From assembly GCF_010747475.1 (NCBI RefSeq), contig NZ_VSLZ01000004.1:248001-312000 (forward strand): a stretch of 64,000 nucleotides of DNA, read 5' to 3'. Under the pieces are notes generated by a model. It saw only the letters and a list, made by a program, of their open reading frames with translations, had not been told where the DNA came from and searched no databases. The stretch's first letter is position 1. Every line of letters starts with the position of its first letter. Shown here piece after piece: positions 53,028-55,395 of this stretch. Origin of the DNA: Halorussus sp. MSC15.2. Lineage in GTDB: Archaea > Halobacteriota > Halobacteria > Halobacteriales > Haladaptataceae. Made by a program: the position numbers and the translations under genes.

Positions 53028-53762
53028 TCAGTCCGCGGCGTCGGGGGCCGAATTCGCGAACTCGGCGGACGAGACGCCGCTCTCCGACGCGTCCTGTCCG
53101 CCGCCGGCGTCCAGCGCGTCGATGTTGACGAACAGGAACCCCGCGAAGCCGACTCGAATCAGCACGGCGATGTACTGCCCGAGTACGTGGACGCCGAAGG
53201 CGGTGAACGCGCCCGCCAGCGAGAGGAAGGCGAACGCGATGAGCATCCCGATGAGGAACAACAGGAGGTTACGCGACTTCCAGTGGAGCAGTCGCCGCTC
53301 GTCGGGGAGTCGCTGTGCGGTCTGCCAGATGGGACCCACGAACAGATACGCGAGTACGAGGTGGCCGCCGATGACCACCACCGTCGATGCGAGCGCGACG
53401 AGACCGCCCATCGGGGTCCCGAACTGGAAGGCGACGACCTGCACGAACGGGAACGCAGTGACGACGGCGAGTCTCCGACGCGAGACGTCCGCCAGCATCG
53501 CGGTGACGAACCACAGCACCGAGTAGGCGACAGCGTCGTTGAGGAACGTCGAGAGGAGGACCGTCTTCCCGCCGACGGAGACGCCGCCGATTCCGGCCGC
53601 CGCGAGGAAACTCGTCAGCACGCCGAGACCGACGACGAAGGTCATGAGGTTGCAGTACCGGCGACCGTGGTCCGGCACGTTTCTGAGCCACGCGACTAGC
53701 ACGGCGAGCGTCGCGGCGTACACGCACCCGGAGGTCGCGTACACGGCCGATTCGCTAATCAT
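53028..53762 (-). CDS. Sensory-rhodopsin-like 7-helix protein lacking the retinal lysine
   Basis: A 244-residue protein with seven helices, overlapping the transducer gene by eight bases. It aligns along nearly its whole length with archaeal sensory rhodopsin [12 protein letters not shown] after helix [10 protein letters not shown] after helix [12 protein letters not shown] at the end of helix [10 protein letters not shown] opening helix F and [10 protein letters not shown] in helix G. In that last motif Arg203 stands where TKVGFGF has the retinal-binding Lys; no Lys exists in helix G. Thr72 and Asn75 replace the helix-C Arg and Asp counterion, and AYS replaces TTP. The retinal-pocket aromatics of helix F are also missing. 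It probably cannot form a Schiff base and may sense something other than light. Gene order (transducer first) matches htr-sop operons. Confidence 0.75.
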
Positions 53763-55395
53763 CGTCACCTCCGGTGACCGCACCTGCGTCCGGACGAGGC
53801 GTCTCGTCCAAGCCACCGTCGTCCTTTGCACTGTCGTGACCGCCTTCGGCGTCGCCGTCGGTGTGACGCGTCTCGAACGCGGTCAGCATCGAACGGAGGT
53901 CTTCGGTCCGCTCGGCGAGGGCGTCGGCGCGCCTGCGCACGTCGCCCATGGTCTCGACTGTCTCGTCTGCCGTCGCCGCGAGGTCGTGCGAGCGGTCGGC
54001 GATGTCTATCGCGGCCTCACGGACGGTCTCGACCGCCGCCGCGACCTCCTCGGTCGCCGCCGCGCCGTCGTCGGTCGCGCGGCTAATCTCCGCCATGGCG
54101 TCGTCCACGTCGGTGACGGTGGTGGTCAACTCCCGGAGCGTATCGCCGGTGGCGGTCACGGTATCGACGCTCGCGTCTATCTTCGTCCTCGTGGCGGCCA
54201 TCTCCTCGGTCACCTCGGTGACGTCGGTTCGCGCGCCGTCGATTATCCCGTCGATTTCGTCGATGGCGTTCCGGGTCTCGGTCGCCAACTCCTTGACCTC
54301 GTCCGCGACCACGGCGAACCCGTCGCCGTCGGCGTCGGCGTGGGCGGCCTCGATGTTGGCGTTCAGCGCGAGCATGTTGGTCTGCTCGGCGATGTCGTCG
54401 ATGAGACCGGTCGTCGATTCGACCTCGTCCATCCGGTCGTCGAGTTGGTCCACCAACCGACCGAGTCCCGCGACGGCCTCCTCGAACTGCTCGATAGTAC
54501 CGACCGCCTCGGCCGCGCGCTCCGCGCCCGACTCCCCGACCTCCGCCGCGTCGCTGGCCCGTCCGGCGACCTCGTCGGTCGTGGAAGCGACTTCCTCGAT
54601 AGTCGCCGAGAGGTCGTTGGCCTCCTCGGCCGCGCTCTGCAGTTGGTCGGTCTGGTCGGTGATGGCGTCGGCGAGCGAGCGGATGTCCCCCGCGAGCGCC
54701 TCGTGGGACTCCTCGACCGCGGCCGCGTCCGCCGCGACCGCGTTGCTGGCGCGTTCGACCTCGGCGGCGAAGTCGAGTATCTCCTCGATAGTGCCGGACA
54801 GCGACTCGGCCATCTCGTCGTACGCGCCGCCGATGCGTTCGATGGCCTCGATGTCTCCGCTCGTGTCGAGTCGGTGCGTGAAGTCGCCGTCCGCGGCCGA
54901 CGACATGGCGTCGCCGATTTCCGACGCCTGTTCGAGGAGCAGGTCGTTTCGCTCCTCGGCCTCCTGTTGAGCGCGTTCGGCCCGTTTCCGGGCGCGTTCG
55001 GCCTCTTCTCTGGCGGCGTCGGACTCGTCGAACGCCTCGTCGAGCGACTGCCGCATCGTGTCGAACGACGACGCCAACTGTCCGAACTCGTCGCCCCGGT
55101 CGCTCTCGGGCGAGACGTCGAGGTCACCGTCCTCGATGGCCTCGGCGGCGTCCGTCAGATTCCGGAGTTCGATACCGACGCTACCGCCGAGAACGATACC
55201 GAGCAGTCCGACGTGAAGCGCGAGGACGAACAGCGTTCCGGCGACCGCGCGAGCACCGTCGCCGCCGCCGCGCGCCACGTCCAGCGCGAACAGGACGCCG
55301 AACGCCATCGTCACGGCGAGCGTGACGAACAGCGCCGCGCCGATGCGGCGACTGTACTTCCTCGCGACCCAATCTCGGAGAGAACGTCTCTTCAT
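53755..55395 (-). CDS. HtrII-like methyl-accepting transducer
   Basis: A 546-residue transducer, start at [10 protein letters not shown] (55395; a GTG three codons upstream is possible). Two helices at about residues 18-39 and 49-72 are joined by a short loop with no ligand-binding domain, exactly as in archaeal rhodopsin transducers. A HAMP domain follows ([37 protein letters not shown]), then a second HAMP-like segment ([36 protein letters not shown]). The signalling tip is [40 protein letters not shown]. The N-terminal layout closely resembles the Natronomonas HtrII pattern. It overlaps the opsin-like gene at 53762, so the two form a receptor-transducer pair feeding CheA. Confidence 0.9.

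Follow-up and report, generated by a model that had tools for sequence, protein, structure and literature searches.

What does a receptor built like sensory rhodopsin II (SRII) sense when the lysine that binds retinal is replaced, and does it work with a transducer of its own? The question is raised by two overlapping genes of Halorussus sp. MSC15.2 in the window analysed here (the whole stretch of 64,000 nucleotides). All features of this locus described below lie on the minus strand.

Structure of the Receptor

The receptor gene (53028–53762) runs from an ATG at position 53762 to a stop at 53028. Its seven-transmembrane (7TM) product of 244 residues is an opsin-related protein of the group A type (see below), as judged from the open reading frame, SRII homology, the AlphaFold2 fold, Foldseek and the tree. 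Sequence matches in the PDB were to Natronomonas SRII only (best E 3.3e-5), and Pfam and NCBIfam searches gave no meaningful match. The AlphaFold2 model, based on a 100-sequence alignment, consists of seven helices and the BC hairpin (pLDDT 92.6, pTM 0.86); the best 15 Foldseek matches in the PDB are all SRII, with TM-scores to the target of 0.79–0.90, in agreement with the rhodopsin fold claimed in an initial annotation of this DNA. A search of viral folds in BFVD with the same model returned nothing at E ≤ 0.001.

The Schiff-base Lys205 of SRII aligns with Arg203 (codon CGA, 53154–53156) in the motif IRVGF. Helix G contains no lysine, K66 and K162 being the only ones in the protein, so that an alternative helix-G lysine is ruled out. 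Further SRII residues, those of the retinal pocket included, are also replaced: R72 by T72, D75 by N75, W76 by D76 (Asn75–Asp76, helix C, 53535–53540), F127 by T127, W171 by I171, Y174 by L174 and W178 by A178. Both the missing lysine and the lost pocket had been read correctly from the letters of the sequence. Of the residues characteristic of the SRII photoreceptor, the helix-G lysine, Asp75 and Arg72 are thus absent, and the transducer-contact tyrosine, Tyr199, is present as Tyr197 (53172–53174, by alignment; contact role from PMC3274258), at a position invariant across the 100-sequence alignment.

Transducer and Gene Pairing

The second gene (53755–55395) starts with an ATG at 55395 and ends with a stop at 53755. 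By its reading frame, Pfam domains and structure–sequence match, it encodes an HtrII-like transducer of 546 residues with two transmembrane (TM) helices, two HAMP stretches, of which the best-scoring covers residues 77–119 (55039–55167; PF00672, E 3.7e-15), and an MCP signalling domain (residues 292–459, 54019–54522; PF00015, E 7.9e-37). The top match of its N-terminus is HtrII (2f95_B, E 8e-20), and the HtrII-type arrangement of two TM helices, HAMP and MCP domain is complete; Asn74 of HtrII is replaced by His61 (55213–55215). Since the Pfam scan found no sensory domain and the TM1–TM2 loop is short, input is expected to come via the 7TM subunit. The transducer gene overlaps the start of the receptor gene by 8 nt (ATGATTAG, 53755–53762), which bears out the dedicated, overlapping HtrII-like transducer of the initial annotation; most relatives have the same overlap of −8 or −4.

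Relatives were searched in 394 Halobacteria genomes and found in 112; the 123 distinct sequences gathered and the NpSRII reference make up 124 rows, in which SRII position 205 carries Lys in 16, Arg in 73, His in 5, a hydrophobic residue in 29 and Ser in 1. To look for spread beyond Halobacteria, a phylum-wide sample of 394 genomes was searched, and every match was in the order of MSC15.2; a scan of genome contigs gave a single relative, from Halobacterium.

In the tree, thinned to 105 rows, the MSC15.2 receptor falls into a clade of 56 Arg sequences from several families, none with Lys, which together with the Ser-bearing L050 forms one side of a branch with support of 100/99 after removal of the trait columns. 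Arg occupies position 205 in 45/45 clade members of the thinned alignment. With 56 members carrying Arg at this site, the substitution is real and chance is excluded, and a local mutation to Arg is ruled out; the phylogeny thus answers whether the Arg is common to a clade, which the initial annotation had left to be decided. L050 (3960–4706, minus strand) is a derived clade member with Ser205 and Ser-Gln at 75/76; both charges are gone, and a transducer still adjoins it.

The transducer gene lies directly upstream on the same strand in 53/56 members of the clade, with an overlap of 4–14 nt in 51 of these, so the pair is conserved as a unit, as had been supposed. One of the three unpaired members lies at a contig end, and each of the two true orphans shares its genome with another copy that is paired (L112 with L048 in G100; L046 with L108 in G355). 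Orphan L112 (4325–6255, minus strand) stands downstream of a gene whose end, by eye, resembles an HTH_10 (Bat-like) regulator. Among the other sequences, a transducer is paired with 14/15 true rhodopsins, 16/30 non-basic sequences and 1/5 sequences with His at the retinal-lysine position (L065, L071, L137, L138 and L139; four do not directly follow a transducer gene). Long open frames in L111 and L090, considered as fused transducer–receptors, were rejected as out-of-frame readings through the transducer region.

The closest named relative of the receptor (78.9% identity) is on a plasmid of Halorussus limi, where its neighbourhood likewise comprises an AI-2E transporter, an SDR, the transducer, the ORP, two hypothetical proteins and two glycosyltransferases. 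Since this gene block is plasmid-borne in H. limi (NZ_CP096660.1, 414.6 kb), the MSC15.2 contig (405,066 bases) may be a megaplasmid. The H. limi protein is annotated 'bacteriorhodopsin', as are ORP relatives on NZ_CP119990.1 and NZ_CP081960.1, a public label that is misleading for lysine-less proteins.

Comparison with H. limi gives dN/dS values of 0.45 for the receptor and 0.24 for the transducer; both are under purifying selection. The lost retinal residues and an evolution faster than that of its neighbours might suggest a former rhodopsin in decay, but this is hardly credible: dN/dS is below 1, and decay is refuted by conservation across 56 clade members of several families, which keep the Arg and the Tyr and of which 53 have a transducer.

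Relation to Opsin-Related Proteins

Becker et al. (2016) named a family of opsin-related proteins (ORPs) and proposed them as non-light taxis receptors (PMC4915679). Its group A, primarily from Halorubrum, has Arg in place of Lys, W76D, Y174L and W178A, and 15/16 members adjoin a HAMP/MCP transducer; group B has a hydrophobic residue at 205, and 17/32 have transducers (PMC4915679). The MSC15.2 receptor combines type 1 opsin homology and fold with Arg203, D76, L174, A178, T127, T72 and an adjacent transducer; judged by these described features, it appears to be a new member of group A. The interpretation in the initial annotation stands in its fold, lysine and pocket loss, transducer and conserved unit, and falls short in presenting as a distinct receptor class what Becker et al. 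had already described (PMC4915679).

With group A the receptor also shares a polar residue at 127 and Tyr199; it differs in having Asn75 together with Asp76, and Thr187/transducer Asp39 in place of the common Asp–His pair. Group B is likewise retinal-free and partly transducer-paired, but it is separate from the MSC15.2 clade, keeps Arg72, has Gly75–Tyr76 in helix C and adjoins a transducer in about half of the cases. Bacterial Rh-noK and freshwater FArhodopsins are lysine-less type 1 opsins too, but they are relatives of proton pumps, and the FArhodopsin cluster lacks a transducer gene (PMC10308929). The legend of the 2016 ORP tree names neither Halorussus nor Halobacterium among its genera (PMC4915679). 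Our data add a wider distribution, which takes in Halobacterium and the family of Halorussus, as well as covariation at the contact sites, a pairing of charges and a second lineage with Arg, all described below.

Of nine ORP genes tested, eight were transcribed; native ORP protein was not detected by LC-MS/MS, and neither of two ORPs that were purified, one of them from Halorubrum distributum, absorbed at 480–580 nm with retinal (PMC4915679). Because of this last result, retinal binding by the MSC15.2 receptor is unlikely, including the non-covalent binding considered in the initial annotation. A photoreceptor that holds retinal or a carotenoid non-covalently would find some favour in the MSC15.2 genome, which has one true rhodopsin (L032/L093) with a transducer of ~790 residues (L093) and one Brp/Blh homologue. 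We nevertheless regard it as very improbable: the pocket aromatics W76, W171, Y174 and W178 are lost, the spectra of the expressed ORPs largely refute it for retinal (PMC4915679), and the retinal-forming enzyme is missing in some clade genomes, with no Brp/Blh match in at least six (G139, G058, G026, G355, G315 and G147).

Predicted Receptor–Transducer Contact

The crystal structure of SRII/HtrII shows bonds from Tyr199 to Asn74 and from Thr189 to Glu43/Ser62; other rhodopsins bind HtrII once both SRII contact residues are grafted in (PMC3274258). By alignment, Tyr197 of the MSC15.2 receptor is expected to face transducer His61, and Thr187 (SRII Thr189, 53202–53204) to face Asp39 (HtrII Glu43, 55279–55281). 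Tyr199 is combined with Asn (32) or His (10) at transducer position 74 in 42/42 pairs of the clade. Positions 189 and 43 covary: 28/42 pairs have Asp–His, two (MSC15.2 and its sister) Thr–Asp, and others Ser–Ser, Gly–Tyr or Val–Val.

An unbiased inter-protein scan placed 189–43 and 189–45 within the top 25 pairs, 11 of which involve helix F/G versus 6 expected; position 43 of the second-lineage transducers, which is misaligned, was left out. Since the shuffle test takes no account of relatedness in its p values and the pairs amount to an effective ~30 only, the covariation lends support to the partnership and is not proof of it.

Overall, the pair resembles SRII/HtrII of Natronomonas pharaonis in fold, gene order, transducer architecture and the contact positions 189–43 and 199–74, and differs from it in having no Schiff-base lysine, Arg72/Asp75, retinal pocket or Tyr174–Thr204 relay. 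With the relay bond lost, the internal signal path must differ from that of SRII.

Proposed Core Charge Pair and a Second Arg Lineage

An acid stands at 75/76 in 73/76 of the sequences whose residue 205 is basic and in 0/29 of the others; on the tree this association does not reach significance, because a phylogenetically independent test has only two or three independent events or pairs. L096, of the MSC15.2 clade, has Asn-Asn at 75/76. As read from the alignment rather than from coordinates, the pair of protonated Schiff base and Asp75 has probably been replaced by a permanent Arg/Asp pair, with Asn75–Asp76 as the proposed acid partner of Arg203. In SRII itself, disruption of the Schiff base–Asp salt bridge reportedly causes constitutive signalling (Spudich 1997).

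Seven positions are invariant in the MSC15.2 clade, including Tyr80, Lys162, Arg164 and Arg205, and several former-pocket positions vary (entropy 1–2.7 bits).

Arg at 205 also occurs in 17 sequences of one family (f4) that are separate from the MSC15.2 clade (L053, L054, L055, L056, L121–L128 and L130–L134). All 17 overlap a transducer of ~770 residues by 4 nt. They have the helix-C motif RYxDY and retain Arg72, Asp/Glu75, Tyr174, Asp201 and mostly Thr204, with Lys205, Trp178 and Trp76 lost; 13/17 of their genomes have no Brp/Blh match. Compared by the text description of 2016, this second lineage appears to fit neither ORP group, because group A is without Arg72 and Tyr174 and group B is hydrophobic at 205. 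Tree tests rejected neither a common grouping of both Arg lineages (p 0.106) nor a grouping of the second one with the Lys rhodopsins (p 0.464); one Lys-to-Arg change and two would both agree with this outcome. We tentatively suggest that a receptor for a cue other than light might be switched by a buried Arg/Asp ion pair that has taken over from the protonated Schiff base and its counterion, the second lineage being a surviving intermediate between light and non-light receptors; this is possible rather than likely.

Proposed Function

We consider it probable that the two proteins sense independently of light, with a group A ORP and its own HtrII-like transducer forming an SRII/HtrII-type complex that feeds the chemotaxis kinase. 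The receptor has kept the SRII fold and the transducer contact surface, while the retinal lysine and pocket are gone; Arg203 would provide a permanent positive charge at the position of the protonated Schiff base and probably pair with Asp76 of helix C, as the Schiff base does with Asp75 in SRII. The stimulus would be something other than light, most probably a small molecule or ion that reaches the remodelled core, with pH or membrane voltage as less likely candidates. By disturbing this core it would move helices F and G and rotate TM2 of the transducer. Beyond the observed sequence, predicted fold, clade, gene pairing and contact-site covariation, we infer complex formation, the ion pair, coupling to CheA and the stimulus; the genome has six CheW-domain matches.

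The joint occurrence of a basic residue at 205 and an acid at 75/76 would also agree with direct, ligand-free sensing of membrane voltage or the proton gradient by an Arg–Asp pair in the membrane core, and the seven invariant positions suggest one trigger common to the clade and not ligands that differ between members. The variable former-pocket positions, however, fit differing ligands, and group B, of the hydrophobic type, has neither charge, yet about half of it is transducer-paired; on balance this explanation seems rather unlikely. We know of no electrophysiology that bears on it.

Still less likely is that the transducer itself senses and is stabilised by the 7TM subunit, which would act as its structural partner or as a lipid scramblase. 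Opsins without retinal can scramble phospholipids (PMC12805836), and selection on the receptor is looser than on the transducer; but hardly any of the transducer is external, no sensory domain is recognised in it, and the ORP keeps its seven invariant residues, core Tyr80 and Arg205 among them.

A partial literature search found no functional ORP study after 2016 and no demonstration of a stimulus, ligand or behaviour for any ORP. MSC15.2 adds a Halorussus member to this family, and the contact covariation and Arg–Asp pairing point to specific mutants, with the second Arg lineage as a possible natural intermediate. If the proposed light-independent complex works as inferred, the rhodopsin/transducer module has been re-used for a non-light cue and would be a microbial parallel of the visual opsins among GPCRs.
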